Below are positions 1 to 21,100 of a stretch of 21,100 nucleotides of DNA, in pieces (position 1 is the first letter of the stretch; every line of letters starts with the position of its first letter). This DNA comes from a virus. A program made the translations under genes and the position numbers. The notes under the pieces are model-generated. The model was not told the origin of the DNA, did no database searches, and saw only the letters and a program-made list of their open reading frames with translations. The stretch lies in the IMG/VR virus record IMGVR_UViG_3300030419_004055, positions 1-21,100 of that record. One strand, written 5' to 3'.

Positions 1-497
1 ACATTGGGTATGGATTATCGGTTGTAGGTGTCACAACTCTTGCCTCTGCTGGTGGTATTACTACTACTGGTGGAGATTTGTATGTTGGTGGAGATCTCTA
101 CGTCAAGGATGATATTACTTACGATCAAGTTTCTGGTCGTGAGATTAATATTACTGGTCTTGGTACGATTGCATATTTCCATGCAACCACTGTAAGTGTA
201 AGTGGAGCTTCCACTCTTAGTGGTCTCACCAGTATGACCGATGTGGTATCAAGTGGTATTGTTACTGCGGATGCCTTCTATGGAGATGGTTCTAATTTAA
301 CTGGTGTAGTTGCTGCCAGTGGTGGTGCAATTGGTGTTGCTTCCGAAGGAACTTATATTGGATCTGGTACTACCTTTATTAACTTTGCATCCAGTAATGG
401 AACAGCATGGACGGTCACAGCTCCATCATCAGGTGTGGCAACCGCAACAGTTACTCCAGGTGCTTCACTTGGAATGGTAATCGCTCTTGGCGGTTAA
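1..497 (+). CDS. Fibre-like virion protein, 3' part (start lies before window)
   Basis: The frame is open from base 3 to the TAA at 495-497, so this is the C-terminal ~164 residues of a gene that begins upstream; an internal TTG at 78 is not a convincing start. It is a low-complexity, Gly/Ser/Thr/Val-rich beta-type sequence with marine-phage fibre modules: LASAGGITTTGG, then GGDLYV, then DVVSSGIVTADAF, then GDGSNLTG. A following segment (GVASEGTYIGSGTTFINF) resembles one in the 241-aa protein at 14736 (GIQSGGTQIGAGVTTLNF). The C-terminus is short and hydrophobic. The protein at 15461 shares the GGITTTGG and DVVSSG modules. Role as a tail-fibre or fibre-like component is inferred from these modules and the neighbours; which part of the virion it belongs to is unknown. 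Confidence 0.75.
   Translation, partial: IGYGLSVVGVTTLASAGGITTTGGDLYVGGDLYVKDDITYDQVSGREINITGLGTIAYFHATTVSVSGASTLSGLTSMTDVVSSGIVTADAFYGDGSNLTGVVAASGGAIGVASEGTYIGSGTTFINFASSNGTAWTVTAPSSGVATATVTPGASLGMVIALGG
240..272 (+). repeat. 33-nt dispersed repeat, copy 1 (DVVSSGIVTAD module)
   Basis: This 33-nt stretch encodes DVVSSGIVTAD in frame. It is identical to 15656-15688 and differs at two third-codon positions from 1409-1441. It is a short homology island shared by three fibre genes. Confidence 0.9.
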
Positions 498-503
498 TAA
501 ATA
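496..503 (+). promoter_or_regulatory. T4-type late promoter motif AATAAATA
   Basis: AATAAATA begins inside the TAA stop of the upstream fibre gene and ends 20 nt before the ATG at 524. It is a one-base variant of the T4 late consensus TATAAATA, which is read by the phage late sigma factor (gp55). Position and spacing match the other late motifs in the window. Confidence 0.6.
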
Positions 504-523
504 ACCTTAATACTTAAAGAACA

Positions 524-1060
524 ATGGCAGAATCGTTTACCAATTCATTATCAAGAGCAGTAGGGATCGTAACTACGAACACCGCAGGTTCCGTTGGAAT
601 TAAAACCAATATCATTAGTGGTATTTCAACAGTTGGAATTTCTTCGGGATATATTGTTGACAGTACTCATACTCTTCAAGGAACGAGGGTTGATAGAGTT
701 GATGTTAGTAAGGTTTATATTGATAGGGATTCAATTAATACTGCTGCGATATCAGGGACAGGTGCTTTTTCATTCCTAGGATTAACAAGTGCATATACTG
801 CTTCCGATAAAAGTATTTTGATTGGTGGTACATTTGCTAATAACACTGATAGTGCAGTGAATATTTGGATTGAAGTTCATGATAGTTCTTCAAATACAGT
901 AGCAGGTATAGGACAAAAGATTCCTGTTCCAACTGGAAGTTCTTTTGTTATTAGTGATGCTGGTAAGACATTGTTAGAAAATACTGATTCTCTCAGAGTG
1001 TATTGCGATACTGCAAATGGAGTTGATGTTGCTCTGAGTATCCTTAAGGGGGTTAGCTAA
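524..1060 (+). CDS. Small beta-rich virion protein (178 aa)
   Basis: I do not recognise a named family. The first ~60 residues are fibre-like (repeated GI.T/GIS). The last ~90 look like a beta-sandwich: an ILIGG strand, a NNTDSAVNIWIEV strand, PVPTGSSF, then LLENTDSLRVYC and a final strand. The same order (N..SA-V-[IV]-W, then VP.G/D, then L.[EN]N.S[IL]) appears in the 122-aa protein at 7630 and more loosely in the 134-aa protein at 15819. All three directly follow a late promoter and precede an adhesin-type gene. The ATG at 524 is chosen because it follows the late motif by 20 nt and the MAESF start is typical. A structural or decoration role is inferred. The gene ends immediately before the ATG of the next one. 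Confidence 0.75.
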   Translation: MAESFTNSLSRAVGIVTTNTAGSVGIKTNIISGISTVGISSGYIVDSTHTLQGTRVDRVDVSKVYIDRDSINTAAISGTGAFSFLGLTSAYTASDKSILIGGTFANNTDSAVNIWIEVHDSSSNTVAGIGQKIPVPTGSSFVISDAGKTLLENTDSLRVYCDTANGVDVALSILKGVS

Positions 1061-2488
1061 ATGGCAGTACATGGTCAAGGTTATATTGGAAGAAGTCCAG
1101 GTGACGCAGCTATAACTGTTGCTAGAGAAGTTTTTGAGCCAACAGGAGTTCAGACAGATTTTACATTTGCTTCGGGATATACACCGGGATATATGGATGT
1201 ATTCCTTAATGGTGTTAAATTACTTGAAGCAAGAGATTATGAAGCCGGTAATGGAAGTACAGTTGGTCTTTCTTCATATGCAGTGAGTGGAGATGTTCTT
1301 GAATTAGTTGCGTATAAAGCATTTAATTTGGGGCAAACCGTTGATCAAATAACAGGAGATTTGGATCTTAATGGTAAGTTAACTGTCACGGGAATTAGTA
1401 GTCTTACTGATGTGGTATCTAGTGGTATTGTTACTGCTGATGCTTTTTATGGTGATGGTTCTACTTTAAGTGGACTATCAACTGCTGCTGTTCCTGGTAT
1501 TAGTACCCAATTACATTCAGTTTTTGGTACTATGAATGTTTCTGGTGTTGCTACTTTTGCTGGTAATATTTCTGTTGGTGGAACCATTACTTATGATGAT
1601 GTAACCAATGTAGATTCTGTTGGTATTATAACTGCAGGAAAAGGATTTAGAGCTACTACTGGTGGTCTAATTGTAACTGCTGGTGTATCGACATTTACTG
1701 CTGCTATTGATGCTAATAGTTCTGCTGATATTTCAGGCGGTGTTAATTTAAGTGCTGGTAATTTAAAAGTAACCGCTGGTATTGTAACTATTGGGGCTGG
1801 TTTAACTTTATCATCAGACTTTATTCATTTAGGGGATAATAAGAAAATACAATTAGGTATTGCCTCTGATTTTACAATACAGCATAATGCTACTAATTCG
1901 GTAATTAATAATACAACCGGCCAACTAAGGATTGCTGGTGATGATGTCCGAATCATGAATAAGGATGAGGATGAAACTTATGCTACTTTTGCAAATGATG
2001 GAGCAGCAACGTTATACTATGATAACTCTAAAATAATAGAGACAGTTAGCTCAGGTGCTAGTGTTTATGGAGCATTAAAATTACAAAATGGTCTTCTGCG
2101 AGAGAATGTTAATAGAAATACAAGTGCTGCTGCTAATGCTGCTACTGCACTTAATTTAGATAATGGAATGGTTCACTGGTTTACAACTAACCTAGGTGCT
2201 GCTAATGTTAAAATGAATGTTGTTTCAGGTACTGGAATTAATACTGACCTCGCAATTGGAGATATGATAAGTGTTACTATTATGACTGCAGTGAATAGCA
2301 CTAGTAATTTTATTGAACAAGTTAGAGTTGATGGTGTAGAAGCATCGGCAGGAGTAACAACATACTGGACTGGAGGTAGTGCTCCAACTGACGGTGGAGG
2401 AAGTGGTGTTGATAGTTATGCATTTAATATTGTTAAGACTGGAAATGGCACATACGATATGATTGCCAATCAAGTCAAGGGTTCGTAA
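1061..2488 (+). CDS. Tail-fibre-like protein (475 aa), block A
   Basis: Residues ~15-92 form a head domain (FTFASGYTPGYMDVFLNGVK, then DYEAGNGSTVGL, then a hydrophobic strand) also found in the protein at 14736 and common at the N-terminus of marine phage fibres, where it probably docks the fibre. Next come DVVSSGIVTADAF and GDGSTLSG modules, a run of beta repeats, and a region with LGDNKKIQLGIASD, NKDEDETYATFANDGA and YYDNSK. The last ~110 residues (GTGINTDLAIGD, then VDGVEASAGVTTYW, then GGSAPTDGG) match the C-terminus of the 308-aa protein at 12258. The ATG follows the upstream TAA directly, with an AAGGGGG Shine-Dalgarno at 1046-1052. Its partner downstream is a glycine-rich protein, an order recalling T4-type gene 37 then gene 38. 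The receptor-binding role is inferred. Confidence 0.85.
   Translation: MAVHGQGYIGRSPGDAAITVAREVFEPTGVQTDFTFASGYTPGYMDVFLNGVKLLEARDYEAGNGSTVGLSSYAVSGDVLELVAYKAFNLGQTVDQITGDLDLNGKLTVTGISSLTDVVSSGIVTADAFYGDGSTLSGLSTAAVPGISTQLHSVFGTMNVSGVATFAGNISVGGTITYDDVTNVDSVGIITAGKGFRATTGGLIVTAGVSTFTAAIDANSSADISGGVNLSAGNLKVTAGIVTIGAGLTLSSDFIHLGDNKKIQLGIASDFTIQHNATNSVINNTTGQLRIAGDDVRIMNKDEDETYATFANDGAATLYYDNSKIIETVSSGASVYGALKLQNGLLRENVNRNTSAAANAATALNLDNGMVHWFTTNLGAANVKMNVVSGTGINTDLAIGDMISVTIMTAVNSTSNFIEQVRVDGVEASAGVTTYWTGGSAPTDGGGSGVDSYAFNIVKTGNGTYDMIANQVKGS
1409..1441 (+). repeat. 33-nt dispersed repeat, copy 2 (DVVSSGIVTAD module)
   Basis: This copy differs from 240-272 and 15656-15688 at two bases, both silent, and encodes the same DVVSSGIVTAD peptide. 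Confidence 0.85.
1835..1986 (+). repeat. Duplicated fibre segment, copy 1 (partner 12531-12682)
   Basis: Bases 1835-1872 are identical to 12531-12568 over 38 nt, and the match continues in register (offset 10696) to the coding of NKDEDETYATFANDGA. It marks the core shared by the fibre genes of blocks A and C. Confidence 0.85.
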
Positions 2489-2501: not shown

Positions 2502-3545
2502 ATGTTTTTGGGGCCATTTATTAAACAGATGCCTATAGTAGGATATACTGGATTTGGTGGAGGTGCTACTAGTTTATTCAGAGGTGGTGCAGAAGATTTA
2601 AATTCAGGAATATCTGCAACTGGTGGAACTACAAACCCATATACAGACCCTGCTGGAGTTGCATGGACTGCCCATAAATTTACTGGTCCAGGAACTTTTA
2701 GTGTAAGTGAGGTAACTGGCACAGGATTAGTAGAATATCTTGTCGTCGGTGGGGGCGGCGGTGGTGCTGGTGGAACTCCTTGGGATGGTTCTGGCGGTGG
2801 TGGTGGTGCTGGCGGTTTTAGAACTAATGTAGATGGTCATCCATTAACTGAGCCAACTTCTACTGGTTTTCCAGTATCAGCTTCTCCTGGATCTTATCCC
2901 GTAACTGTTGGTTCTGGAGGTGGTGGGGGTGCGACGGGACCCAAACCTCCACATGATCCTCCTACTGGATCTCCTAATGCTAGTGATGGCGGATCTTCTA
3001 CCTTTAGTACTATAACGTCTGCTGGTGGCGGTGGCGGTGGTGGATATCAGAAAGTAGGTAATCCTGGTGGTTCTGGTGGTGGACATGGTAATAGTGGACC
3101 ACCTACTGGAGCAGGAATTTCTGAAGGAAATGATCCTCCTGTAAGTCCTCCTCAAGGAAATGATGGTGCTGGCGGCGGTGGTGGCCGTGGCGGCGGCGGT
3201 GGCGGCGGTGCTGGTGAAGCAGGAGAACCTCAACATGGTGGTGGCGGTAGTGAAGGTGGTCCTGGTGGAGATGGTTCTCCAATAGCAATTTGGGATAATA
3301 GTGCTACTTACTATGCTGGTGGCGGTGGTGGTGGAACCAATAAAAACCCACCTACAAACGTTGGCGGCGAAGGCGGCCAAGGTGGTGGTGGAGATGGTGG
3401 ACCTGGTGCTGCTGGTCAAGCCGGATCTGCAAACACCGGTGGTGGCGGTGGTGGCGGTGGTAATGTACCTCCTGCCCCTAACGTAGGATATGCGGGTGCA
3501 TCTGGTGGATCTGGTATTGTTATTGTTCGATACCGAACTAATTGA
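2502..3545 (+). CDS. Glycine-rich adhesin-like protein (347 aa), block A
   Basis: The start at ATG 2502 is chosen over an in-frame ATG at 2463: the later one has an AAGGAGG Shine-Dalgarno at 2487-2493 overlapping the previous stop, and the paralog at 13198 starts at the matching place. The N-terminus (GFGGGATSLF) leads to ISATGGTTNPYTDP, a FTGPGTFSVSEVTGTG strand region and YLVVGGGGGG. Long Gly runs follow, separated by polar, Pro-rich or Asn-rich loops, then the closing strand SGIVIVRYRTN. This is the glycine-rich domain plan known from phage adhesins, where Gly runs can pack as polyglycine-II helices as in phage S16 gp38. Two SPP-type Pro clusters and GPPTG occur in the loops. Role as fibre-tip adhesin is inferred from composition and position after a fibre gene. 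Confidence 0.8.
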   Translation: MFLGPFIKQMPIVGYTGFGGGATSLFRGGAEDLNSGISATGGTTNPYTDPAGVAWTAHKFTGPGTFSVSEVTGTGLVEYLVVGGGGGGAGGTPWDGSGGGGGAGGFRTNVDGHPLTEPTSTGFPVSASPGSYPVTVGSGGGGGATGPKPPHDPPTGSPNASDGGSSTFSTITSAGGGGGGGYQKVGNPGGSGGGHGNSGPPTGAGISEGNDPPVSPPQGNDGAGGGGGRGGGGGGGAGEAGEPQHGGGGSEGGPGGDGSPIAIWDNSATYYAGGGGGGTNKNPPTNVGGEGGQGGGGDGGPGAAGQAGSANTGGGGGGGGNVPPAPNVGYAGASGGSGIVIVRYRTN

Positions 3546-3570
3546 CATTTGACATTCTTCCCTATATAAT
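3542..3570 (+). promoter_or_regulatory. Consensus sigma70 promoter before oxygenase/halogenase cassette
   Basis: TTGACA at 3542-3547, a 17-nt spacer and TATAAT at 3565-3570 match the bacterial consensus exactly. The -35 overlaps the TGA stop (3543-3545) of the glycine-rich gene. A second TTGACA at 3549-3554 is too close to the -10 to pair with it. Initiation near 3577 would leave a leader of ~16 nt before ATG 3593. In T4-like phages such promoters drive early genes through host RNA polymerase. Confidence 0.75.
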
Positions 3571-3592: not shown

Positions 3593-4213
3593 ATGGCATA
3601 TCAGAGTATATGGTATTTTACGGATCTCCCTGAGAAGGTGGTAGATCTGATAGAAGAAGATTTAACGGAAAATTTTGATCCCCAGATGGGAGACTCCAGG
3701 TTACATGGAGATTCTTTGAACAAAGATAAGAGAAATTCAATGAATGCCTGGGTTCCTACTAATCATTGGGTAGGTGGATTTATTTGGCATTATATCCAAA
3801 GAGCCAATAGAGAGAACTTCTTGTATGATTTGCGGTGTATTGATGGTGAAAGTATGCAATATACTAGGTACACGGAAGGGCAGTTTTATACCTGGCATAA
3901 TGATGCAGGACTTGCAGGACAGTATAAACCAGTAGCGGTAGGTAATCGAACAGAAGGACGCGGACAAGATTTCCTTAATGAGAAGGTGGAGATGGTAAGG
4001 AAATTGTCTTTTGCCATGCAATTATCTGATCCCGATGATTATGAGGGTGGGAATATTCAATTGATGGATGAAGGAGGTAAGAGTTATATTGCACCTCGAC
4101 AGAAAGGGTCTATAATGTTATTTGATTCTCGAACTCCACATAGAGTTCAAAAGGTAACAAAAGGTGTTCGGAAGTCTCTTGTGGGATGGACGGTTGGACC
4201 TCGTTGGAAATAG
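3593..4213 (+). CDS. 2OG-Fe(II) oxygenase, prolyl-4-hydroxylase-like (206 aa)
   Basis: A compact double-stranded beta-helix dioxygenase resembling PKHD-type hydroxylases. The metal triad is visible: H102 and D104 in TWHNDAG, and H183 in TPHRVQKV. R193 (VRKSLVGW) is placed to bind the 2-oxoglutarate carboxylate. YTRYTEGQFY before the HxD and the GGNIQLMDEGGK / PRQKGSIMLFDS strands are typical of the fold. Such enzymes couple 2OG decarboxylation to hydroxylation of a protein or small substrate; the substrate here is unknown. It is the first gene of a cassette with its own sigma70 promoter, directly after a glycine-rich adhesin-like gene. The ATG at 3593 has only a weak AGG upstream. Confidence 0.88.
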   Translation: MAYQSIWYFTDLPEKVVDLIEEDLTENFDPQMGDSRLHGDSLNKDKRNSMNAWVPTNHWVGGFIWHYIQRANRENFLYDLRCIDGESMQYTRYTEGQFYTWHNDAGLAGQYKPVAVGNRTEGRGQDFLNEKVEMVRKLSFAMQLSDPDDYEGGNIQLMDEGGKSYIAPRQKGSIMLFDSRTPHRVQKVTKGVRKSLVGWTVGPRWK

Positions 4214-4223
4214 GAGGTAAATC

Positions 4224-4952
4224 ATGGCAGAACAGATGACCGAACACGATATCCTTGTACAGGAGCGTCTTAACACTGGAACTTCATGGACAAGAAATGA
4301 AGATTTTGATAAGGATGGATACTTTGTAGTAAGAAATTTATGGGATCCTGAAGAACTTTATCATCCTGTTCCTAATATAAGAGGACAGTTAAACTATTGG
4401 GATAGAGATCCTGATCATTTCACTCATGTTGAACTTGAGACCCAAGTAGAAGGCTGTGTTTCCCGTTATTATCATCCTCAATATAGAGATATTCATACTG
4501 GTGTTCGTCTGAAATTAGAAAGTATTATCGGTAGGAAACTTTATAATACTTATTATTATGATAGATATTATTTTGAAGGACAAGAACTAGCTAAACATGC
4601 AGATAGAGGTGCATGTGAGATTTCTTGTACAATGCATATTAGTACTAATCTTCCCCAACCAGAAAAAGATTGGCCTATTAAGATTAAGACACCTGATGTT
4701 TACACTGATGAGACAAAAACTGCTATTCTAGTCCCTGGTGAAGAACGCTCTTGTGTATTAAATCCTGGTGATGCGATGTTGTATAAGGGATGTGAGAGAC
4801 CTCATTGGCGTGATCCTTTAGAAGGTCCAAAGGTTAATAAGTTTTTTGGTAAAAAAAAGGAAGGACCAGAGTATTATTATCATCAAATCTTTTTCCATTA
4901 TGTTTTACAAGATGGTATAAGAGCTCACTGTGCTTGGGATGCGGCTAGATGA
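4224..4952 (+). CDS. 2OG-Fe(II) oxygenase-like protein (242 aa)
   Basis: FDKDGYFVVRNLWDPEEL near residue 30 resembles the entry strand of PhyH/prolyl-hydroxylase-type enzymes. The putative iron ligands are H125 and D127 (AKHADRGAC) and H194 (RPHWRD), with the strand VLNPGDAMLYKG before the distal His. The region between carries aromatic residues (YNTYYYDRYYF) that could line a substrate pocket. The C-terminal YYHQIFFHYVLQDG is a plausible closing strand. A strong Shine-Dalgarno (AGGAGGT) precedes ATG 4224. It overlaps the next gene by ATGA and is second in the cassette. The overall fold assignment is solid; subfamily and substrate are not clear. Confidence 0.78.
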   Translation: MAEQMTEHDILVQERLNTGTSWTRNEDFDKDGYFVVRNLWDPEELYHPVPNIRGQLNYWDRDPDHFTHVELETQVEGCVSRYYHPQYRDIHTGVRLKLESIIGRKLYNTYYYDRYYFEGQELAKHADRGACEISCTMHISTNLPQPEKDWPIKIKTPDVYTDETKTAILVPGEERSCVLNPGDAMLYKGCERPHWRDPLEGPKVNKFFGKKKEGPEYYYHQIFFHYVLQDGIRAHCAWDAAR

Positions 4953-5503
4953 AGGCACCCCTTTTTGAATACCCTTCTTTTCAGTATGAGGTCGATGACT
5001 GGGAGTTTAAAAAGAAAGGTTTGCTTAATCGCATCAGCAAGCAGAAGTTTATTAGAACTCCCCTTCAGACTTTTGAAACTGATAGGCAGACTTCTGGCAA
5101 GACTTATGTTAATTATCTTACAGAGTTTTTAAGACCTCAACTTGATGAATTTTGTAAAGAAGCAGATGCTACATGTAGTATGACGGATGCATGGTGTGTT
5201 AGATATCATAAAGGAGATCATCAAACTATTCATAATCATAGAGGATGGGGATTTTCTGGTATTTTATATGTGGAGTTCGATCCACAACTCCATAGACCAG
5301 CATGTTTTATGGCACCGTGGCAAGATCCGAGGAATGATACAACTTACCTTTCATTTCCTAGTGTGAAGGAAGGAAGTCTTTTTATTGCACCTTCTTTTAC
5401 TCATCATTATGTTCACCCTGTGGATGTAAGGAAACCAAGAACGGTTATATCATTTGATTTATTACCAACATTACCCATTCACCAAACATTAAATGAAAGT
5501 TAA
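4949..5503 (+). CDS. 2OG-Fe(II) oxygenase superfamily protein, HxH variant (184 aa)
   Basis: It overlaps the previous gene by 4 nt (ATGA), so translation is coupled. The core GDHQTIHNHRGWGFSGILYVEF fits the phage-rich 2OG-FeII_Oxy_5-like group, whose members read H.H....SG.YY. H95 and H97 occupy the usual HxD position, so the second acidic ligand is replaced by His. The distal site is H152/H153 in FTHHYVHP, followed by R-K-P-R-T-V-I-S-F-D, the usual Arg and closing strand. Third gene of the cassette. Whether iron binding uses three His is inferred. The same HxH pattern appears in the genes at 14241 and 19231. Confidence 0.78.
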   Translation: MKAPLFEYPSFQYEVDDWEFKKKGLLNRISKQKFIRTPLQTFETDRQTSGKTYVNYLTEFLRPQLDEFCKEADATCSMTDAWCVRYHKGDHQTIHNHRGWGFSGILYVEFDPQLHRPACFMAPWQDPRNDTTYLSFPSVKEGSLFIAPSFTHHYVHPVDVRKPRTVISFDLLPTLPIHQTLNES

Positions 5504-6986
5504 GAGTATTTGTATTTTAGGTGGTGGAACATCTGGATTTGCTATGGCAGCTGCTTTGGCACGTTGTAGTGAGCGTTGTGGATTAGATATTGATATTAGG
5601 GTAGTTTATAGTGAGAGTATTGGGAGCATTGGGGTAGGAGAATCTACAATCATTAGTATTAATGAATTGTTAGGTTATTTGGGATTGGAAGATATGGATT
5701 GGATGAAAGAGTGTAATGCTACCTATAAGACTTCTATTAGATTTGAAGATTTTTATAAAAAAGGTACTCATTTTCATTATCCTTTTGGAAGAGTTCATCC
5801 AGAGCAGAATACTTTTGATGGGGTGAACCAATGGTTTGTTAATAAGGAAGTTTTTCCTGACACCTATACTCCTGAGAGAGCATCGACTTATTTTGTTTCT
5901 TCTACCATGTTAGCAGAGAAGAATAAGTTAACTGATGATGGTAATTATGATTTAGAAACTAATACTGCATATCATTTTGACTCTCACTTATTTGGAGAAC
6001 TTCTAAAGTCTTATTCTGAAGAAGGGGGAGTGGAAGTCATAGAGGATACTTTTAAGAGTGCAACTTTGAAGGAGGATGGTTCTATTGAGTCTTTGGTGTG
6101 TGAGAAGGGTACATATGAAGCAGATTTGTTTATAGATTGTAGTGGGTTTAGATCCTTACTTCTTGGTGAGGTAATGGGAGAAGAGTATGTTTCTTATGGC
6201 GATACTTTAATTAATAATAAGGTGTTAAGAGCACAGATTCCATACAAAAATAAAGAAAAAGAATTAAAGAATTATACTAATTGTGTTGCTTTGAAGAATG
6301 GATGGTGTTGGGAAATACCTTTATGGGATAAGATGTCTGTAGGATATGTTCATACAAATAAGTTTGCTACTGAAGAAGAGATTGAAAAAGAATTCTTTGA
6401 TCATGTGGGAGAAGTGGACTATGATATTGTAGAGTTTAAGACTGGGAGGTATAAAAGAGGATGGGTAAAGAATGTAGTAGCAGTAGGATTATCCTATGGA
6501 TTTGTAGAACCCTTGGAGTCAACGGGAATTGCAACAACACTCATGAATCTTTTTAGAGTTATAGAGTGTCTCTCTAAAAGAGATATGAATTATACACAAA
6601 TAGATAGAGATTTATTTAATTATGATATTCCTAAGAACATTGATGGATTTAGATCACTTGTAGAACTCCATTATTATCTTTCTAGTAGAAGTGAGAGTGA
6701 TTATTGGAAATATGTTACTGAGGATATTACTTACGATAATCTTCCCTTTTTACAGGCCAGTGTTGATTCAAGAACTTATTATGAACCTAATAATTTTAAT
6801 CCGGCTACTTTGTTCATTGCTGCTGGTATGAATTATTCTTGTTTTTCAAAAGCATTTGTTGTGAGAAGACCTAACGAGGCTTATAAGAAGAACAAGAAGG
6901 AGTTTGAGAAATATCTGAAGGATTTGGAGATAAATGTTCAAAGGCTTCCTTCCACCCACAAGTTTTTATTAAAGCATATTTATTGA
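5493..6986 (+). CDS. Flavin-dependent (tryptophan-type) halogenase (497 aa)
   Basis: A full-length member of the flavin-dependent halogenase family, which uses FADH2, O2 and halide to make hypohalous acid and halogenate an aromatic or electron-rich substrate. All diagnostic elements are present: GGGTSG at residues 10-15 for FAD binding; IGVGEST near 46-52; K79 in TYKTSIRF, the same number as the catalytic Lys of PrnA and RebH; W271-C272-W273-E-I-P, matching the WxWxIP halogenase motif; and FVEPLESTGI at 337-346. No flavin reductase is encoded nearby, so a host reductase would be needed. It overlaps the previous oxygenase by 11 nt and ends the cassette. Marine cyanophages carry related enzymes; one of them, VirX1, has been reported to prefer iodide. 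Substrate and halide here are unknown. Confidence 0.93.
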   Translation: MKVKSICILGGGTSGFAMAAALARCSERCGLDIDIRVVYSESIGSIGVGESTIISINELLGYLGLEDMDWMKECNATYKTSIRFEDFYKKGTHFHYPFGRVHPEQNTFDGVNQWFVNKEVFPDTYTPERASTYFVSSTMLAEKNKLTDDGNYDLETNTAYHFDSHLFGELLKSYSEEGGVEVIEDTFKSATLKEDGSIESLVCEKGTYEADLFIDCSGFRSLLLGEVMGEEYVSYGDTLINNKVLRAQIPYKNKEKELKNYTNCVALKNGWCWEIPLWDKMSVGYVHTNKFATEEEIEKEFFDHVGEVDYDIVEFKTGRYKRGWVKNVVAVGLSYGFVEPLESTGIATTLMNLFRVIECLSKRDMNYTQIDRDLFNYDIPKNIDGFRSLVELHYYLSSRSESDYWKYVTEDITYDNLPFLQASVDSRTYYEPNNFNPATLFIAAGMNYSCFSKAFVVRRPNEAYKKNKKEFEKYLKDLEINVQRLPSTHKFLLKHIY

Positions 6987-14735: not shown

Positions 14736-15461
14736 ATGCCGATAGGAAGACCGCTAGATTTAACCGCTAATGTTGCTAGAAAGGATATTTCAGTAACAGC
14801 GACTGCGGGACAGACCCAGTTTACTGTCCAAGGCGGTTATAGAATTAATGAGATAGGTGTATATCGTAATGGTGTTCGATTGGTAACTGGTAAAGATTAC
14901 ACGGCAAGTGATGGGGCAACAGTCACTTTACTTTCTGCTGCAACTGCCGATGATGTAATTAATTTTCAGATTTTTGATTCATTTAATATTGCTGATGCTA
15001 TTAATTCTGATTCATCCGATCAAACCATTAATGGTAATTTAACGGTTACTGGTGATATAGTTGGTGTCAGCACAAGAATGATAGGTGCGGTTGGTATTCA
15101 ATCGGGTGGAACTCAGATTGGTGCTGGCGTTACAACACTGAATTTTGTGGGAAGCGGTAACACATTTGCTTATGATGCTTCTGCTAATAGAGTGGATATT
15201 AGCATTTCTGGTAGTGGAAGTGGTGGTGGTTTAGGAACTGCTATTAATTATGCGGATGGTAGTACTGCATCTCCATTCAGTTATATTGGTAATTCAGTTG
15301 ATGTAACCGAGAATATGATGATTGGTACTTCTAAAGCTGGTGGTAACAGTTCTTATGTTGTTTCAATTTTCCCTTCAACGACTATTGCTTCTGGTGTTGC
15401 GGTTACAGTGGGTGCTGGTAAGACCCTGGTTCTTGATGTACTACAAATCGGAGATCTCTAA
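14736..15461 (+). CDS. Fibre-like virion protein with head domain (241 aa)
   Basis: Residues ~15-88 (DISVTATAGQTQFTVQGGYR, VYRNGVRLVTGKDYTASDGATVTL, then a hydrophobic strand) are the same head domain as at the N-terminus of the 475-aa fibre at 1061. Next come NGNLTVTGDIVGVS and GIQSGGTQIGAGVTTLNF, a module also in the partial protein ending at 497. The C-terminal third (NMMIGTSKAGGNSSYVVSIF, then VAVTVGAGKTLVLDVLQIGDL) is beta-rich and not recognised. It looks like a short fibre or fibre-base protein bearing the docking domain without a long shaft. Its TAA overlaps the next ATG by one base. Confidence 0.78.
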   Translation: MPIGRPLDLTANVARKDISVTATAGQTQFTVQGGYRINEIGVYRNGVRLVTGKDYTASDGATVTLLSAATADDVINFQIFDSFNIADAINSDSSDQTINGNLTVTGDIVGVSTRMIGAVGIQSGGTQIGAGVTTLNFVGSGNTFAYDASANRVDISISGSGSGGGLGTAINYADGSTASPFSYIGNSVDVTENMMIGTSKAGGNSSYVVSIFPSTTIASGVAVTVGAGKTLVLDVLQIGDL

Positions 15462-15799
15462 TGAGTAAGTTAGTTGTACAAAGCATAGAAGGACCTAATG
15501 ATAATGCCAATAGGTTTCCTGATGGTCTGAGTGTTACAGGCATCACTACTCTGGCAAGTTCTGGTGGTATAACAACTACGGGTGGTGTATTATTTGTGGG
15601 TGCAGGTGCTTCTGTCGGTGGTAGATTGGAAGTTTCTGGAATCACTAGTGTTGGGGATGTGGTATCAAGTGGTATTGTTACTGCGGATTCAGGAAGTTTT
15701 GGTGGAACTGTAACTGCTAATGCTTTTTCTGGTGATGGTTCAAATTTAACAGGATTACCTGCTGGATTTACTGAATTAGATGCAATGCTTTTTAACTAA
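15461..15799 (+). CDS. Short fibre-like virion protein (112 aa)
   Basis: Begins MSKLVVQSIEGPND, then GLSVTGITTLASSGGITTTGG, a GAGASVGGRLEVSGITSVG segment, DVVSSGIVTAD, and NAFSGDGSNLTGLPAG, ending in LDAMLFN. Nearly every module is found in other fibre-like genes of the window, so it is a mosaic of shared blocks. It overlaps the previous stop (TAATG) and is probably translationally coupled to it, suggesting the two products work together. A connector or short-fibre role is inferred. A late motif straddles its stop codon. Confidence 0.75.
   Translation: MSKLVVQSIEGPNDNANRFPDGLSVTGITTLASSGGITTTGGVLFVGAGASVGGRLEVSGITSVGDVVSSGIVTADSGSFGGTVTANAFSGDGSNLTGLPAGFTELDAMLFN
15656..15688 (+). repeat. 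33-nt dispersed repeat, copy 3 (DVVSSGIVTAD module)
   Basis: Identical over 33 nt to 240-272, about 15.4 kb away, in a different fibre gene; flanking sequence diverges on both sides. Confidence 0.9.
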
Positions 15800-15802
15800 A
15801 TA
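15795..15802 (+). promoter_or_regulatory. Degenerate T4-type late promoter motif ACTAAATA
   Basis: ACTAAATA straddles the TAA stop at 15797-15799 and ends 16 nt before ATG 15819. It has two changes from TATAAATA but the TAAATAACTAAAAAA context is the same as at 14713 onward. Confidence 0.5.
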
Positions 15803-15818
15803 ACTAAAAAAAGAAATC

Positions 15819-16223
15819 ATGACGCTTCAAAGAACACAATTGATAGGCATTACTTCCATTACAGGTATTAATACTGTTGGTATTTTTACTGCGGGAGTAA
15901 CTCCTATTCCAGTGGGAATTGCTTCTACTTCTTATATCAGAAGCGTTATTATGCATAACACTGGTACAGGAACTTGTAGATGTTCCTTGTATGTTAATCC
16001 TAATCATACTCCAGTTCAAACAGGGTTTGGTATTACATCGCAGAGAATTTTAAGAATTGATTTAGCACCTAACGAAACAAGTTTCTTTGAAACAAATTAT
16101 CCTATTGTATTAACTCCCAATGATTCCATTACTGGGGAAATTACAGCTCCTGATGTAGGTGGTGCAGGTATTGGATCAATGGTTAATTTTATCGTAAATG
16201 GCGATACAGATATAACATTCTGA
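15819..16223 (+). CDS. Small beta-rich virion protein (134 aa)
   Basis: The first ~25 residues are fibre-like (IGITSITGINTVGIFTAG). The rest reads as a beta-sandwich: SYIRSVIMHNTGTGTCRCSLYV, RILRIDLAPNETSFFETNYPIVLTPNDSITGEI, and a final hydrophobic strand VNFIVNG. The strand order matches the small proteins at 524 and 7630 (tNTGT-x-C-x-C-S-L-Y against NSADVTVSW; LAPNETS against VPADTT; LTPNDSI against LEENHSI), although identity is low. Two Cys (CRC) lie next to each other in one strand. It follows a late motif and precedes the propeller array. Structural role inferred. Confidence 0.72.
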   Translation: MTLQRTQLIGITSITGINTVGIFTAGVTPIPVGIASTSYIRSVIMHNTGTGTCRCSLYVNPNHTPVQTGFGITSQRILRIDLAPNETSFFETNYPIVLTPNDSITGEITAPDVGGAGIGSMVNFIVNGDTDITF

Positions 16224-16235: not shown

Positions 16236-17192
16236 ATGCCAATTAAATCACTGAACAGTAAGGACAGTTATTATAATTACTTCGCGGAATCGGGTACTTT
16301 GCAAGGCACTCTGTATAATTGGGGTGGAGATCGTGGTATATGGGCTGGTGGTTCAAATGGTGGTCCTTATGAGCTTACTATAGATTATATTTCAATACTA
16401 ACTACAGGTAATGCCAGTGATTTTGGTGACCTGTCAGATGCTCGTCAGTATCCTGCTGCGGTTTCCAATGGTCAGCGTGGGGTAATTGCAGGTGGTGATA
16501 GTGGACCTAAACTTAATGTGATTGATTATATAACTATTCCAACACTAGGAAACGCATTTGATTTTGGTGATCTCAATAATACTGCAGAGGGTCCTGCTTC
16601 ATGTTCGAGTAATGTCCGTGGATGTTTTGGTGGGGGTGGAACACCTAGTACTACTAATGCGATTGATTATATAACGATAGCAACTACTGGTAATGCAACA
16701 GACTTTGGTGATTTACAGGCTGCTAAAAAAGATGTAGCGGGAACTTCTGATGGGAGTCGTGGAGTTTTTGGTGGAGGTTATCAGGCTCCTACTTCTACTA
16801 ATGTAATAGGTTATATAACCATTGCAAGTACAGGTAATGCCACAGATTTTGGTGACCTGTCAGATGCACGATATCAGTTTGGTGCATGTTCTAGTAGAAC
16901 TCGTGGAATATGGATGGGTGGTAATGATGATGCAAGCAGCACAAATGTAATTGATTACGTAACGATAGCAACTACGGGTAATGCTACTGATTTTGGTGAT
17001 ACTACAGGAGACACTGAGAGAAATGCATGTTGTGCTAATGGAGAAAGAGGTGTAAGTGGTGGTGGACATAATGGAAGTTCAAAAATTAACATAATACAAT
17101 ATGTAACCATTGCAACTCCAGGAAATGCAACTGACTTTGGTGATTTAACTCAGACTCGTAGTGGTCCTGCTTCATGTTCGGGGGATGCATAA
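16236..17192 (+). CDS. Predicted six-bladed beta-propeller, copy 1 (318 aa)
   Basis: Six repeats of ~45-50 residues, each with a strand pair [IV].Y[IV][TS]I.T.GNA.DFGDL, a variable segment, and an RG[IV]..GG strand. There are six FGD motifs and six RG..(A/G)GG-type motifs. The first RG strand (GDRGIWAGG) lies at the N-terminus before the first FGD, and the last repeat stops at CSGDA, so the final blade would be closed by the N-terminal strand, the usual Velcro closure of kelch/RCC1-type propellers. The N-terminal ~25 residues (MPIKSLNSKDSYYNYF) probably attach it to the virion. No catalytic motif is seen. The variable faces between FGD and RG would suit ligand binding; adhesin role is inferred. 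A TAGGGG Shine-Dalgarno precedes the ATG. Confidence 0.8.
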   Translation: MPIKSLNSKDSYYNYFAESGTLQGTLYNWGGDRGIWAGGSNGGPYELTIDYISILTTGNASDFGDLSDARQYPAAVSNGQRGVIAGGDSGPKLNVIDYITIPTLGNAFDFGDLNNTAEGPASCSSNVRGCFGGGGTPSTTNAIDYITIATTGNATDFGDLQAAKKDVAGTSDGSRGVFGGGYQAPTSTNVIGYITIASTGNATDFGDLSDARYQFGACSSRTRGIWMGGNDDASSTNVIDYVTIATTGNATDFGDTTGDTERNACCANGERGVSGGGHNGSSKINIIQYVTIATPGNATDFGDLTQTRSGPASCSGDA

Positions 17193-18199
17193 TGGGAATA
17201 AAATCTTTAGGAAATTCAAAGGTAAAATATAAGGCAGTTTGGAAACAAACTGGATTAGAAGCTGCAGATCGTATTATGATTTGGTATGGAGATCGTGGAA
17301 TCTGGGGTGGAGGAGCATCAGGTAATGGTAGTCAATTGGATAGTATAGATTATAGGTCTTTAGCAACGACAGGTAATGCATCAGATTTTGGTGATTTAAC
17401 TCAGGCTAGACTTACTTGTTCAGGATGTTCTGATAGTAAAAGAGGATTATTTGGTAGTGGTACTTCAAGTAATGATGCTGGGGCGGTAAAAACTATTGAT
17501 TACATAACTATTGCAACTACAGGTGATGCTGCTGATTTTGGTGATTTAACAGTTAAATTTAACTATAGTACTTCATTTTCTGATGGTTCAAGAGGAATCT
17601 GGTCTACTGGACAGAATCAACCAAGTGCTGGGTATATCAATACCATGGATTATGTAACTATTGGAACCCTAGGAGATGCAACAGACTTTGGTGATAATAC
17701 ATTATTGCGTCATGCAGTTGCAGGATGTGCTAATGAAACTAGAGGACTGACTGGTGGGGGTATTGCTCCATCACCAGTTGGTACAAACAATACTATAGAT
17801 TATGTTACTATTGCTACAACAGGAAATGCAGTAGATTTTGGAGATTTAACTAACACTCCTTATGGTTTTGGTGCATGTTCATCACCAACTCGTGGAGTAT
17901 TTGCTGGAGGTGCTGCTCCTGCATCCCCATCATTTTATAATGTAATTGGTTATGTTACCATTGCAAATGCAGGAAATGCAACGGATTTTGGTGATTTGAA
18001 CTTTGATAAGGAAGGTTCCTTTGGAACTTCTAATGGTTCAAGAGGAGTATTTAGTGGTGGTTTTCAGGCTCCTACTCTTACACCTACTTATATTAATACT
18101 ATAGATTATGTGACCATTGCAACTCCAGGAAATGCCACCGATTTTGGTGATATGAATACTGCTAGAGCATATGGTGAAGCTATTTCGGGGGATGGTTAA
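17192..18199 (+). CDS. Predicted six-bladed beta-propeller, copy 2 (335 aa)
   Basis: The start at ATG 17192 is chosen over an in-frame ATG at 17174: it overlaps the previous stop as TAATG, has a GGGGGA Shine-Dalgarno, and gives the N-terminus MGIKSL, matching MPIKSL and MGLRTY of its two paralogs. Six FGD repeats and six RG[ILV] strands are again present, beginning GDRGIWGGG and ending AISGDG. Variable segments differ from copy 1 throughout (for example NDAGAVKT, QPSAGYINT, ASPSFYN), while the IDY[IV]TIATTGNATDFGDL framework is held. Role as a second alternative or additional receptor-binding propeller is inferred. Confidence 0.8.
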   Translation: MGIKSLGNSKVKYKAVWKQTGLEAADRIMIWYGDRGIWGGGASGNGSQLDSIDYRSLATTGNASDFGDLTQARLTCSGCSDSKRGLFGSGTSSNDAGAVKTIDYITIATTGDAADFGDLTVKFNYSTSFSDGSRGIWSTGQNQPSAGYINTMDYVTIGTLGDATDFGDNTLLRHAVAGCANETRGLTGGGIAPSPVGTNNTIDYVTIATTGNAVDFGDLTNTPYGFGACSSPTRGVFAGGAAPASPSFYNVIGYVTIANAGNATDFGDLNFDKEGSFGTSNGSRGVFSGGFQAPTLTPTYINTIDYVTIATPGNATDFGDMNTARAYGEAISGDG

Positions 18200-18201
18200 A
18201 G

Positions 18202-19185
18202 ATGGGACTTAGAACTTACAATACTAAATCTTCTTTCGAGGATCCATATACTGGGACTGGTCCTTTACGAGTAGCAGAGGTTACCAAATATTATGGAGAT
18301 CGTGGAATTTCTGCTGGTGGTGCAGATCCTTTTGTTAATGTAGTAGGTTATATTAATATAACACAGCCTGGAAATGCTACTGACTTTGGTGATATGACTG
18401 CTGCTACTGGATATGGTGCAGGATGTGCTGGTGGTGGAGGTCTGGCAAAGGCTAGTCGTGGATGTTATGGAGGAGGGCAAAATCCTTCTACTACTAATGA
18501 AATCCAGTATATAACTATAGCAACTCTAGGAAACTTCAGTGATTTTGGTGATTTATCCCAGTCTAGACTTGAGCTGGCAGCAGCGGCGGGTGGTAAAGCT
18601 GATAGAGGTGTATGGGCTGCTGGTTCAGATGGTTCTAATCTTACAGATAGGATAGATTATGTTACTATTGCAACTACAGGAAATGCCACTGATTTTGGTA
18701 ATGTGGACACGGATAGGAGAAGATGTGGTGGATTAAGTAGTGGTTATCGTATGGTTATTTGTGGAGGAACTGCTCAATCTGGAAGTCCTAACTCTAATGT
18801 TCTGGAGTATATAGAAATAGATACTGCTGGAAACGGAACAGATTTTGGTGATCTAACCGAATCTAAACATGAAGTGGGAACTGGGGGTAATGCAACTCGT
18901 GGAGTAATAGGTGGAGGTGATGCTGGTGCTGCTTCTAACGTAATAGAATATATAACGATAGCAACTCCTGGTAATGCAACAGATTTTGGTGATCTAACAG
19001 GAGCGCGTAATGCTATTGGTGCGTGTAACAATGATGCCCGTATTGTATGGATGGGTGGTCTCTTGAGTGGTAGTAATACTAATACTTGTGATTATGTAAA
19101 TATTGAAACACCAGGAAATGCAGTTGATTTTGGTGATATACAAACTAATCGTCGTTATGTTAGTAATGGTATTTCAGGGGATTAG
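18202..19185 (+). CDS. Predicted six-bladed beta-propeller, copy 3 (327 aa)
   Basis: Same plan as its two upstream paralogs: N-terminus MGLRTYNTKSSFEDPY, first strand GDRGISAGG, six FGD or FGN motifs and a C-terminus GISGD. It is the most diverged copy: the fourth RG strand reads YRMVICGGT, one FGD has become FGN, and two repeats have Glu at the strand (LEYIEID, YVNIETPG). Insertions such as GAGCAGGGGLAKAS lengthen the first blade. The gene begins 2 nt after the preceding stop. It is followed by a sigma70-type promoter and an oxygenase gene, as the glycine-rich genes of blocks A and B are. Confidence 0.8.
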   Translation: MGLRTYNTKSSFEDPYTGTGPLRVAEVTKYYGDRGISAGGADPFVNVVGYINITQPGNATDFGDMTAATGYGAGCAGGGGLAKASRGCYGGGQNPSTTNEIQYITIATLGNFSDFGDLSQSRLELAAAAGGKADRGVWAAGSDGSNLTDRIDYVTIATTGNATDFGNVDTDRRRCGGLSSGYRMVICGGTAQSGSPNSNVLEYIEIDTAGNGTDFGDLTESKHEVGTGGNATRGVIGGGDAGAASNVIEYITIATPGNATDFGDLTGARNAIGACNNDARIVWMGGLLSGSNTNTCDYVNIETPGNAVDFGDIQTNRRYVSNGISGD

Positions 19186-19190
19186 ATCTA

Positions 19191-19219
19191 TTGACGTATG
19201 GATAAATTGACTTTATAAT
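19191..19219 (+). promoter_or_regulatory. Sigma70 promoter before oxygenase of block D
   Basis: TTGACG (19191-19196, one change), a 17-nt spacer and a perfect TATAAT (19214-19219). Initiation near 19226 would leave only ~5 nt before ATG 19231, making the transcript nearly leaderless. Confidence 0.7.
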
Positions 19220-19230
19220 GAAAATAAAAA

Positions 19231-19887
19231 ATGTATAAAAAGGATGAACTTTTACAATTATTTCCTACTCCTATTCTAATTGCAAATTATCCATCTGATT
19301 ATTCTAAGGAATTAGAATGGATTAGAAAGTTAGAATGCAATAGACTTAATGGTGGTGGGATAAAAAAAGAAATAGATTGGAAAGCATCTCATCATAACCG
19401 TCAATCAGACGATACATTTTTGCTTGATAAACCAGAATTAAAAAAGATTCGTAAGTTTATTGATATAAAGATTATTAAGTATGTTAAGGAGATTCTAGGA
19501 TCATCAGATAAATTGATGATTACTCAATCATGGGTAAATAAGACAGCAAAAGGTGAGTCGCATCATCAACATGCACATCCTAATAGTCTAGTGAGTGGAG
19601 TGTGGTATCCTGTAATACATGATAAATTACCTCCTATTCAATTTCAAACTCCGATACAAAGAGATGTCTCATTAAATGTATCAAAATTTAATACTTTTAA
19701 TAGTGCAACATTTTTGTTACCTTTGAATAAAGGAGAGTTGATATTATTCCCTAGTAACTTATCTCATAGTGTACCAGCAAATCAATCTGATGAAGAAAGG
19801 ATTAGTTTGTCTTTCAATACTTGGAGTAGTAATGATCTTGGTAGTGTTGAGTCTCTTACCTATCTTCCTATAAGTCGTTTGAGTTAA
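19231..19887 (+). CDS. 2OG-Fe(II) oxygenase, 2OG-FeII_Oxy_5-like, HxH variant (218 aa)
   Basis: The opening LLQLFPTPILIANYPSD is typical of this phage and marine bacterial family. The core ESHHQHAHPNSLVSGVWYPV matches the H.H.N..SGV.Y motif, with H114 and H116 as likely ligands; GELILFPSNLSHSVPANQSDEERISLSFN supplies distal H179, the 2OG-anchoring Arg and the closing strand. This is the clearest family match among the three HxH proteins. Substrate unknown. It stands immediately after three beta-propeller genes, with its own sigma70 promoter. The next gene starts 4 nt after its stop, so the two may be co-transcribed. No Shine-Dalgarno is seen. Confidence 0.86.
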   Translation: MYKKDELLQLFPTPILIANYPSDYSKELEWIRKLECNRLNGGGIKKEIDWKASHHNRQSDDTFLLDKPELKKIRKFIDIKIIKYVKEILGSSDKLMITQSWVNKTAKGESHHQHAHPNSLVSGVWYPVIHDKLPPIQFQTPIQRDVSLNVSKFNTFNSATFLLPLNKGELILFPSNLSHSVPANQSDEERISLSFNTWSSNDLGSVESLTYLPISRLS

Positions 19888-19891
19888 AATT

Positions 19892-20719
19892 ATGTCTGAT
19901 TCTAAAATTGTAAAACAAGAGGTTGATAATAATATCATCACAGAAACTACTGGATTTCTTGTTCAAACTAATAATGTTAATGCCCATGCAGTTGAGAAGG
20001 TAAATAGATTTCTTCCTGAATTGGATGAAAAGACTAGAGCATTTGATCGTAATAATAGTCAAACCACATTATCAATGATGACTCTGACTATGATGACGGG
20101 TCAGTCCCCTTATCGTATGATGCGTCAGATTATGGCAGAGGTGGAGAAAAGAAAGGGAGCACTTGTAGAGGCACAAGTTAAACATGCGAGAGTTTTAAAA
20201 GAAATAGAGAAGTTGCAAGACTCTGAGGATACTGTATCACAGGCAAAGTATCGTCAGAAGTGTGTTAATATTGTAACGATGGAAAGTAAGATTAATGGTT
20301 CTTTTAAGGATATTGCTACTTTAATTGATGCATATAATAATATTAAAGAAAAGAATGGGATTACAGATTGGGATGAACAGGCATTTGAGAAGGAAGAAAA
20401 GAAACATCATGTGCGTCGTGGATTTGAATTGATGTATCGTAATCTTCTTGATGGTGGTAGAGCTTCAACTTCTACTATTGAATATTGTCAGCAATACGGA
20501 GTTCATCCGCAAGTCTGTCTTACTGAAGTATCAGGATATCTCCAATTTACAACAGAGAGAATTGCAAATAATGATCTTCCTCATGCCAATGATTTGGAAG
20601 AATTTTTGGATGAGATGGCAGATAAATACTATCTGAATGCTGATAAGACTGCTGAAAGGTTATTTGGCAAAGCTGACTTTGCTAACAATGATTACATGTA
20701 TAAAACAGTTAAGAAATAG
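19892..20719 (+). CDS. Alpha-helical phage protein of unknown function (275 aa)
   Basis: I do not recognise a named family. After a polar N-terminus (residues 1-55) there is a hydrophobic Met-rich stretch TLSMMTLTMMTGQSPYRMMRQIM at about 60-82, then long charged helices with coiled-coil character (VEKRKGALVEAQVKHARVLKEIEKLQ), and a mixed C-terminal domain with a Cys-containing segment (YCQQYGVHPQVCLTEVSGYL). Composition is quite unlike the beta-rich fibre genes around it. There is no signal peptide or catalytic motif. It starts 4 nt after the oxygenase and is followed by a late promoter. It could be an internal virion, assembly or early regulatory protein; the data do not choose. Confidence 0.7.
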   Translation: MSDSKIVKQEVDNNIITETTGFLVQTNNVNAHAVEKVNRFLPELDEKTRAFDRNNSQTTLSMMTLTMMTGQSPYRMMRQIMAEVEKRKGALVEAQVKHARVLKEIEKLQDSEDTVSQAKYRQKCVNIVTMESKINGSFKDIATLIDAYNNIKEKNGITDWDEQAFEKEEKKHHVRRGFELMYRNLLDGGRASTSTIEYCQQYGVHPQVCLTEVSGYLQFTTERIANNDLPHANDLEEFLDEMADKYYLNADKTAERLFGKADFANNDYMYKTVKK

Positions 20720-20729
20720 TATGCTTTTA

Positions 20730-20773
20730 ATGACATAAATATCTTTATAAATATCTAAAAAGTGTAGAAGCGC
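20730..20773 (+). repeat. Duplicated late-promoter leader, copy 2 (partner 12213-12256)
   Basis: 44 nt identical to 12213-12256, just before the fibre gene of block E. Non-coding identity exceeds that of the coding sequence downstream. Confidence 0.95.
20734..20753 (+). promoter_or_regulatory. Tandem T4-type late promoter motifs (CATAAATA, TATAAATA)
   Basis: CATAAATA at 20734-20741 and TATAAATA at 20746-20753, with the same 12-nt period as at 12217-12236. The second ends 21 nt before ATG 20775. Confidence 0.78.
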
Positions 20774-20774
20774 G

Positions 20775-21100
20775 ATGTCTCAGATTAATGTAACCACTAT
20801 AAAGAGTAGAACAGGAAGTGCGCCGAATTTCTCAGAAGGATTGGTCTCATCTGGAATTTCTACCTTTACTGCTGCGGTTTCCATTGCAGGAACTCTGACT
20901 TACGACGATGTAACTAATATAGATTCGGTAGGACTCATAACTGCCCAGGGAGGTATCAACGTCAGTGCTGGCAATATAAAGGTAAATTCAGGCATTGTAA
21001 CGGTTGGTACTGGTGTAACGATATCATCAGACTTTATACACGTTGCTGATAATTCTAAGATTAATGTTGGTACTGGTTCAGATTTAGTTTTATATCATAC
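20775..21100 (+). CDS. Tail-fibre-like protein, 5' part (continues past window), block E
   Basis: The frame is open from ATG 20775 to the window end (108 full codons). It begins MSQINVTTIKSRTGSAPNFS and continues EGLVSSGISTF, LTYDDVTNIDSVG, ITAQGGINVSAGNIKVN and ISSDFIH, all closely matching the block C fibre at 12258. After that the two part: VADNSKINVGTGSDLVLYH replaces LGDNKKIQLGIASDLTIQH. This second form is also common in marine phage fibres. It shares the head but has a different shaft, and its 44-nt leader is identical to that of the block C gene. Its length and tip are outside the window. Confidence 0.82.
   Translation, partial: MSQINVTTIKSRTGSAPNFSEGLVSSGISTFTAAVSIAGTLTYDDVTNIDSVGLITAQGGINVSAGNIKVNSGIVTVGTGVTISSDFIHVADNSKINVGTGSDLVLYH

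Follow-up and report, generated by a model that had tools for sequence, protein, structure and literature searches.

Morons are extra genes of phages that are expressed from promoters of their own. In phage T5, the early gene llp adjoins the late receptor-binding gene oad, and an action on the receptor has been proposed for it. Here we analysed a virus sequence that bears comparison with both, the 21.1 kb IMG/VR record IMGVR_UViG_3300030419_004055 (positions 1 to 21,100; this whole stretch is hereafter called the window), in which cassettes of genes for 2-oxoglutarate (2OG)-Fe(II) oxygenases and partner enzymes lie among fibre and adhesin genes. Every called gene is on the plus strand, as are all features listed below unless otherwise stated. 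As with morons, the cassettes have their own predicted promoter (three of four), and relatives lack them at the corresponding site; unlike morons, they recur beside one gene class with a preference of enzyme subfamily, and no terminator of their own was identified. The likeness to llp is that the cassettes adjoin adhesin genes (13/14 and 46/66 loci in two samples described below), the early timing here being that of predicted promoters, which are weak in same-strand propeller loci. The window differs from T5 in carrying enzymes in place of a blocking lipoprotein, and an effect on the receptor is here a proposal.

The 2OG-Fe(II) oxygenases of cyanomyoviruses are known as auxiliary genes (T4-GC 104, 240, 412 and 611; PMC3037559), and they belong to the same superfamily as the window enzymes. 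The portions of that article consulted discuss 2OG and nitrogen balance and DNA repair, and contain no link to an adhesin type and no promoter contrast. Oxygenases of cyanophages are likewise described in PMC9964418 and PMC9146016. In metaviromic islands reported in 2014, eight Fe(II)-dependent oxygenase genes were found alongside tail fibres and a role in ‘host recognition’ was inferred (PMC3909814); in the parts of that article concerned, the label comes without argument, adhesin-type specificity or promoters. Cyanophage auxiliary genes have been assigned to the middle expression cluster in a paper whose main text does not contain the word ‘oxygenase’ (PMC5082946). Among the open-licence papers searched, the titles and abstract openings listed describe no adhesin-type-specific pairing and no promoter contrast of the kind reported below. 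A cyanophage genome has roughly a dozen 2OG oxygenases (220 among the 4290 genes of the 19 cultured genomes that were read whole), and these enzymes have no settled function.

The window probably derives from a T4-like cyanomyovirus resembling the Kyanoviridae, because, among the 19 genomes, Synechococcus phage Bellamy is nearest for most of its fibre genes and the nearest relatives of its first three oxygenases are in S-SM2 or Bellamy. A DNA search of phage records with the whole window gave zero matches. The gene order is FFFG-OOOH-FFG-s-OCO-FG-O-FFFPPP-O-U-F (F, fibre; G, Gly-rich adhesin; P, propeller; O, oxygenase; H, halogenase; C, carbamoyltransferase; s, small partner; U, helical partner). 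The three Gly-rich genes, adhesin 1 (2502..3545; PF21722, E 3e-14), adhesin 2 (8014..9111) and adhesin 3 (13198..14241; 58 % identical to adhesin 1), all score above the PF21722 cut-off, and the three FGD-propeller genes (16236..19185; starts at 16236, 17174/17192 and 18202) are paralogues that are mutually 39–49 % identical. We infer that the Gly-rich and propeller proteins are receptor binders.

Behind these adhesins stand four cassettes, whose genes we name by their first position. The first two have several enzymes: block 1 consists of oxygenases 3593 (3593..4213), 4224 (4224..4952) and 4949 (4949..5503) and a flavin-dependent halogenase (5493..6986), and block 2, which follows a small adhesin-cluster partner (9121..9504) with a relative in the Bellamy fibre cluster, consists of oxygenase 9552 (9552..10163), an O-carbamoyltransferase of the NodU/TobZ type (10160..11641) and oxygenase 11638 (11638..12213). 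Blocks 3 and 4 have a single oxygenase each, the oxygenase-like gene 14241 (14241..14723) and 19231 (19231..19887). The open reading frames named in the initial annotation, its fibre blocks with late motifs and, behind each of the four complete adhesin runs, an oxygenase no more than two genes away are indeed present. Oxygenases make up 7 of the 11 non-fibre genes of the window, compared with 220 of approximately 4235 in the 19 genomes (p 2.6e-7). At this composition, an oxygenase within two genes behind all four runs is expected in 39 % of shuffles; the fourfold recurrence thus adds nothing beyond the oxygenase richness of the window. The point needing explanation is the presence of oxygenase cassettes among adhesins, not their fourfold repeat.

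Sequence comparison of related loci indicates that the enzyme subfamily prefers an adhesin scaffold, the 19231 type going with FGD propellers and the 4224-type groups with Gly-rich adhesins. Among contigs chosen by their propellers (80, the best 80 of 414), 11 hold oxygenases (23 genes), and all 11 include a member of the 19231 subfamily. The members on these contigs are 41–65 % identical to 19231, compared with 30 % for the best match in the 19 genomes and 36 % for the best listed in the phage collection. In the reciprocal sample, 80 loci of the 19231 type (the best 80 of 362), propellers lie directly upstream on the same strand in 32 and convergent within five genes in 15; five loci have no propeller despite enough flank, and 28 are cut off. 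The resulting proportion of 47/52 favours linkage, since short loci were dropped from its denominator only if no propeller was seen; selected by flank alone, a propeller is beside the oxygenase in 13/14 loci (five genes on both sides) or 23/28 (three genes). A random other gene of the 52 decided loci has propellers on either side in a mean of 31.3 and a maximum of 40 loci (5000 draws), compared with the 47 observed. The late promoter of the adhesin cannot serve the enzyme in the 15 loci (L312–L345) in which the oxygenase is convergent with the propeller genes, and as judged from these loci the propeller link is kept on either strand. In the tree of the 19231 type, two same-strand groups are split by a long inner branch from the clade that includes the window; this clade holds one further same-strand locus, every convergent locus and the five loci that lack propellers.

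The sample of the 4224 family comprised 79 new loci of at least 576 (L006 was returned again and is outside the 79), of which 13 with fewer than two genes upstream were dropped, leaving 66. The gene preceding the 4224 family member is an oxygenase in 68 of 75 cases. In 46/66 loci, groups of this type start no more than three genes away from a Gly-rich adhesin, compared with 14.9 (maximum 24) for random genes, and propellers near them were found in 0/66. The association between family and scaffold gives a Fisher p of 3e-24, in which three loci with both scaffolds are counted twice and the underlying counts are inflated by near-copies and common descent. Because a scan for Gly-rich genes yielded just four loci, these genes were approached by way of the oxygenases. 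Scans with single sequences gave no relatives of 19231 or 14241 and one of 9552, and a profile scan for 19231 succeeded.

One explanation of this preference is that the oxygenases, made ahead of the late adhesins or together with them, hydroxylate residues of the adhesin scaffold (Pro, Asp or Asn) in trans, with one enzyme per adhesin type per genome. A protein-modifying enzyme predicts that subfamily follows scaffold, and a single enzyme acting in trans would account for the many adhesins without an oxygenase of their own. The composition of Gly-rich adhesins argues the other way: between those beside cassettes (75) and the others (48), no residue differs at p<0.01. Propellers near an oxygenase differ slightly in composition from the others, in sets that are phylogenetically confounded. 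Neither an early-type promoter nor placement on the opposite strand is needed for adhesin modification, which we regard as only slightly less probable than the action on the host surface proposed below.

Two classes of predicted promoter motif, each with its own placement, separate the cassettes from the structural genes, and cassettes of the 3593 and 4224 types conserve this contrast. Transcription of cyanomyovirus early genes is believed to rely on unmodified host sigma70 and that of late genes on NATAAATA, the middle promoter class being unclear (PMC2984593). Motifs of the late type are found in the window at 496 (AATAAATA, 496..503), 6986 (6986..6993), 7600 (7600..7607), 12217/12229 (double, 12217..12236), 14711 (14711..14718) and 20734/20746 (double, 20734..20753, opening a fifth block). 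Each is directly before a fibre-cluster gene (524, 7014, 7630, 12258, 14736 and 20775, respectively), and no oxygenase is among the genes behind them. There are two other matches, one at 20621 inside gene 19892 and one at 6984 on the minus strand. Sigma70-like sites are in no overall excess (54 in bases 1–20000, compared with 70 in shuffles), and the top three of the 54, scoring 12, 11 and 11 out of 12, occupy the gaps of 47, 47 and 45 nucleotides (nt) ahead of 3593, 9552 and 19231, respectively. No other site of the whole window comes within one mismatch of TTGACA-N16-18-TATAAT, as these three do: TTGACA-17-TATAAT (3542..3570; 12/12), in which the −35 element overlaps the stop codon of adhesin 1; TTGACA-17-TATACT (9508..9536; 11/12, and 12/12 in contig L019), three bases behind the preceding stop; and TTGACG-17-TATAAT (19191..19219; 11/12), five bases behind the stop.

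The site before 3593 recurs among its orthologues in the window, S-SM2, Bellamy and 18 contigs (L228, which duplicates the contig of L001, was left out): 14/21 score at least 10 of 12 at 22–30 nt from the start, five of the remainder retain TATATAAT and two have neither, and shuffled upstream sequences reach this score in 4.6 % of cases. For the counts that follow, upstream sequences shorter than 110 bases were skipped, and only distinct ones were counted for the 4224-family and 19231-type loci. A leader like CTGAATACATTATAGG (3571–3592) follows the promoter of 3593 and of its S-SM2 and Bellamy orthologues; none of the other strong promoters in the 19 genomes is followed by one. In the 4224-family loci, a sigma70-like promoter precedes 39/62 first oxygenases, 3/116 adhesins and 53/587 other genes (oxygenase against adhesin, p 1e-19); with the −10 element required at 12–40 nt from the start, the counts are 39/62, 1/116 and 29/587. 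Loci of the 19231 type have a promoter in 25/55 cases, dropping to 17/55 when well placed (12–40 nt), with 5/10 in convergent, 10/23 in cut-off and 0/3 in propeller-less loci; under the same placement rule, the propellers of these contigs give 2/73 and other genes 40/625. In the cultured genomes, the late motif is before 2/220 oxygenases and 17/55 fibre genes (p 2e-11).

The layout described in the initial annotation, late promoter, fibre, adhesin and then one oxygenase per adhesin, can be read as one late operon, in which the adhesin transcript ends with an oxygenase gene matched one to one. The position of an oxygenase within two genes behind all four complete runs agrees with such an operon, as does the finding that none of the terminator-like sites listed (consensus type only; 13, compared with 9.6 expected, near chance) falls in the three promoter gaps; most same-strand 19231-type loci also lack a well-placed promoter of their own. 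A shared late unit as a rule is contradicted by the sigma70-like promoters at three of the four cassettes, by late motifs that stand before fibre genes only and by convergent placement in 15 loci. One oxygenase per adhesin also failed to hold. On contigs L001–L019, which were found by searching with 3593 and 9552, an oxygenase on the same strand is next at 1/24 Gly-rich run ends besides the 16 beside the bait cassette (one more Gly-rich gene, in L005, has an opposite-strand oxygenase two genes on). We therefore consider this operon a very improbable explanation.

How far adhesins and oxygenases associate in general was assessed in the 19 genomes. Adhesin classes were assigned by regular expressions in all samples and, in this cultured set only, also by window-seeded profiles, so that unrecognised adhesins exist. 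An oxygenase is within two genes downstream of the end of a Gly-rich or propeller run in 9/29 cases, compared with 2.29 expected (1/5000 rotations as high), and within five genes in 16/29, compared with 4.73 (0/5000); as the immediate next gene it is found in 2/29, about the 1.35 expected by chance. The regular expressions missed Gly-rich genes recognised by Pfam, for example in P-RSM6, and PF21722 matches were added in a recount, which gave 2/34 for the next gene (1.59 expected), 9/34 within two (2.86; 5/2000) and 18/34 within five (5.88; 0/2000). The predicted enrichment of oxygenases downstream of adhesins is thus upheld for distances of two to five genes and not for the immediate neighbour. 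The reciprocal tests favour a link of oxygenase subfamily with adhesin scaffold; one-to-one matching is not supported. In these genomes, 154 of 165 oxygenase clusters start without a recognised fibre or adhesin gene within three genes upstream, and Bellamy has many fibre and Gly-rich blocks with one such cluster among them. Four further phages (P-SSM3, S-SSM6b, S-H35 and P-HM1) were included in a 23-record search for the Gly-rich family and are outside the 19. The gene after the 87 propeller runs of the 80 propeller-chosen contigs is U in 48 cases and an oxygenase in nine. At the equivalent site of relatives the cassette is therefore often absent, U being directly after the propellers in 48/87 and no same-strand oxygenase being next in 23/24 Gly-rich cases.

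Blocks 1 and 3 are paralogues of each other: their fibre proteins (1061 and 12258) are 60 % identical over 316 amino acids, their Gly-rich adhesins 58 % and their DNA 76 % over 1.2 kb, and additional similar stretches of DNA reach as far as the adhesin stop. Their oxygenases are unrelated (no blastp match at 1e-5), and that of block 1 has a promoter while that of block 3 has none. The paralogy corrects the initial annotation, and fixed adhesin–enzyme pairs are not supported by the same comparison. In addition, 19231 sits between the propellers and U, two elements that often adjoin each other elsewhere. Because of these two observations, enzyme and adhesin do not appear to be inherited as a fixed pair; the gene comparisons show an optional link with exchangeable enzymes.

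Another explanation is that the 3′ side of adhesin genes is a recombination hot spot at which self-promoted cassettes settle as morons and from then on travel with the adhesin, their chemistry serving metabolism or defence and having nothing to do with adsorption. Oxygenases are common everywhere in these genomes (220/4290 genes), 154/165 cluster starts are far from recognised adhesins, the paralogous blocks carry unrelated oxygenases, and 19231 sits between genes that adjoin each other in 48/87 runs elsewhere. A hot spot alone does not predict the constancy of subfamily and scaffold, nor a propeller link that occurs in both strand orientations and on each side of the long inner branch of the tree; common descent of the travelling unit could still yield the linkage. 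We regard hitch-hiking of this kind as about as probable as adhesin modification.

The identity of the enzymes bears on the substrate. Four oxygenases are above Pfam cut-offs as 2OG oxygenases (3593, PF13640; 4949 and 19231, PF13759; and 11638), and 9552 and 14241 are under these cut-offs and match a cultured-phage profile at E 7e-12 and 8e-14. Six window proteins match this profile, which has no window members and whose members were gathered by searches started from window proteins, five at E ≤8e-14 and 9552 at 7e-12. The motif HxD..H..R was read in 3593, 4224 and 9552; variant ligands were found in 11638 (HxE, with Lys for Arg), 14241 (HxH, with Lys) and 4949 and 19231 (HxH, with Arg). Oxygenase 3593 matches PiuC structures in PDB (E 2e-5) and is 81 % identical to S-SM2 SSM2_035, recorded as T4-LIKE GC 412. 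The predicted fold of 4224 (mean predicted local distance difference test score (pLDDT) 83) is that of a 2OG dioxygenase, with prolyl-4-hydroxylases (P4H) as top PDB matches (best match at a Foldseek E of 2.6e-7, with a query-length TM-score of 0.47). The family of 4224 is phrog_2954, labelled ‘ferrochelatase’ in PHROGs, and its S-SM2 relative is recorded as T4-LIKE GC 615; we rejected the ferrochelatase label for 4224, as its motif and predicted fold are those of a 2OG-Fe(II) dioxygenase. The labels ‘DNA endonuclease (V)’ of phrog_274 (best match of 9552) and phrog_2297 (second match of 11638) also look wrong, the proteins matching 2OG-oxygenase profiles.

Among the partner enzymes, 10160 matches O-carbamoyltransferases (GdmN, novobiocin and TobZ entries). 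It overlaps both flanking oxygenases by four bases, in an order (10160–12213) that is identical in L019, and this overlap suggests a putative operon in which hydroxylation may precede carbamoylation. In the cultured genomes, carbamoyltransferase and oxygenase are adjacent in 4/16 cases, compared with 1.75 expected, which is not significant (475/5000 as high), and a halogenase is within three genes of an oxygenase in 8/13, compared with 3.44 expected (85/5000). VirX1 (PDB 6qgm) is the closest solved relative of 5493 (E 2e-99), the gene that ends the oxygenase cassette behind a Gly-rich adhesin. VirX1 is a cyanophage halogenase of broad substrate range that has been reported to iodinate diverse aromatic substrates (PMC8407142). 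As predicted from these matches, the chemistry of the cassettes fits the tailoring of glycans or small molecules. The idea that the adhesins themselves are modified gains from the P4H-like fold of 4224, whose matches include a P4H complex with EF-Tu, and from the match of 3593 to PiuC. Partners such as a carbamoyltransferase and a halogenase are, to our knowledge, unlike those of known protein-hydroxylation systems, which counts against it.

Taken together, we propose that the cassettes encode self-promoted tailoring enzymes matched to the adhesin type and most likely acting on the host surface, a reading to which we give a probability of about one in three. Late structural modules (late promoter, fibre and adhesin) alternate with enzyme cassettes that start at or just behind the structural stop codon, three of the four with a predicted host-type sigma70 promoter. 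Host polymerase would make the enzymes early, ahead of the adhesins; the enzymes would hydroxylate, carbamoylate and halogenate the host surface, or precursors of it, recognised by the neighbouring adhesin type; and the infected cell would then stop adsorbing sister virions or debris. Because such a change of the host surface would block re-adsorption, an enzyme could be linked to an adhesin and yet be expressed at another time. An early action on the host surface is favoured by the early-type promoters, the opposite-strand linkage and the small-molecule or glycan chemistry.

Several observations weigh against this proposal. Specificity at the level of the scaffold fits modification of the adhesin at least as well as modification of the receptor, and the PDB matches of 3593 and 4224 are PKHD and prolyl hydroxylases, which include protein hydroxylases. 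Five of the 80 19231-type loci are clearly without a propeller, 17/66 4224-family loci have no recognised adhesin, fibre or long gene within three genes, and the 80-locus samples consist of top-ranked matches that include near-copies. The promoter evidence is also uneven: only 2/19 distinct upstream sequences of same-strand 19231-type loci have a well-placed promoter, and in the cultured genomes only 2/11 first-after-fibre oxygenases reach the promoter score (Bellamy 47724 does so in addition and is outside this count, as another oxygenase stands ahead of it). Within the window, only 11 nt separate the promoter of 19231 from its start codon, so that there is hardly any leader; no sigma70-like promoter was found for the block 3 oxygenase; and transcription from late promoters further upstream could continue into cassettes on the same strand. 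Moreover, S-RSM4 is described as without the sigma70-like early motif (PMC2984593).

The link between subfamily and scaffold, with the contrasting promoter class of the Gly-rich cassettes, narrows the search for substrates to those related to adsorption, and it names genes, loci and timing for tests. On a wider reading, which we consider somewhat less probable than the proposal itself, late receptor-binding proteins of marine phages would be paired, according to adhesin type, with early enzymes that rewrite the matching cell-surface target. If this reading is true, such pairs would be an enzymatic counterpart of a receptor-blocking gene beside its receptor-binding gene, and many unexplained 2OG oxygenases, carbamoyltransferases and halogenases of cyanophages would share a role in the control of adsorption.

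The remaining genes of the window, called like the others with a simple open reading frame caller, are mostly structural. They comprise a fibre-cluster protein 54 % identical to one of the Bellamy fibre cluster (524..1060), the block 1 fibre protein (1061..2488), a fibre-type protein (7014..7604), a small fibre-cluster protein (7630..7998), the fibre protein 12258 (12258..13184), three fibre-cluster proteins (14736, 15461 and 15819; 14736..16223) and the start of a fibre protein (20775..21100) that is 78 % identical to 12258 and is cut by the contig end. Protein U (19892..20719) is a helical protein of 275 amino acids (mean pLDDT 81) and the commonest product encoded directly after propeller runs, with homologues in 61/80 propeller loci. 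A tblastn search of 50,697 phage records gave zero matches to it, its fold has no counterpart at E≤0.001 in PDB or BFVD, and there is one remote profile match, in the fibre region of S-RIM2. U is a candidate assembly partner of the FGD propellers. Finally, a direct repeat of 324 bases (12213–12536 and 20730–21053; 80 % identical) holds the double late promoter and the fibre start, and is a possible substrate for module duplication.

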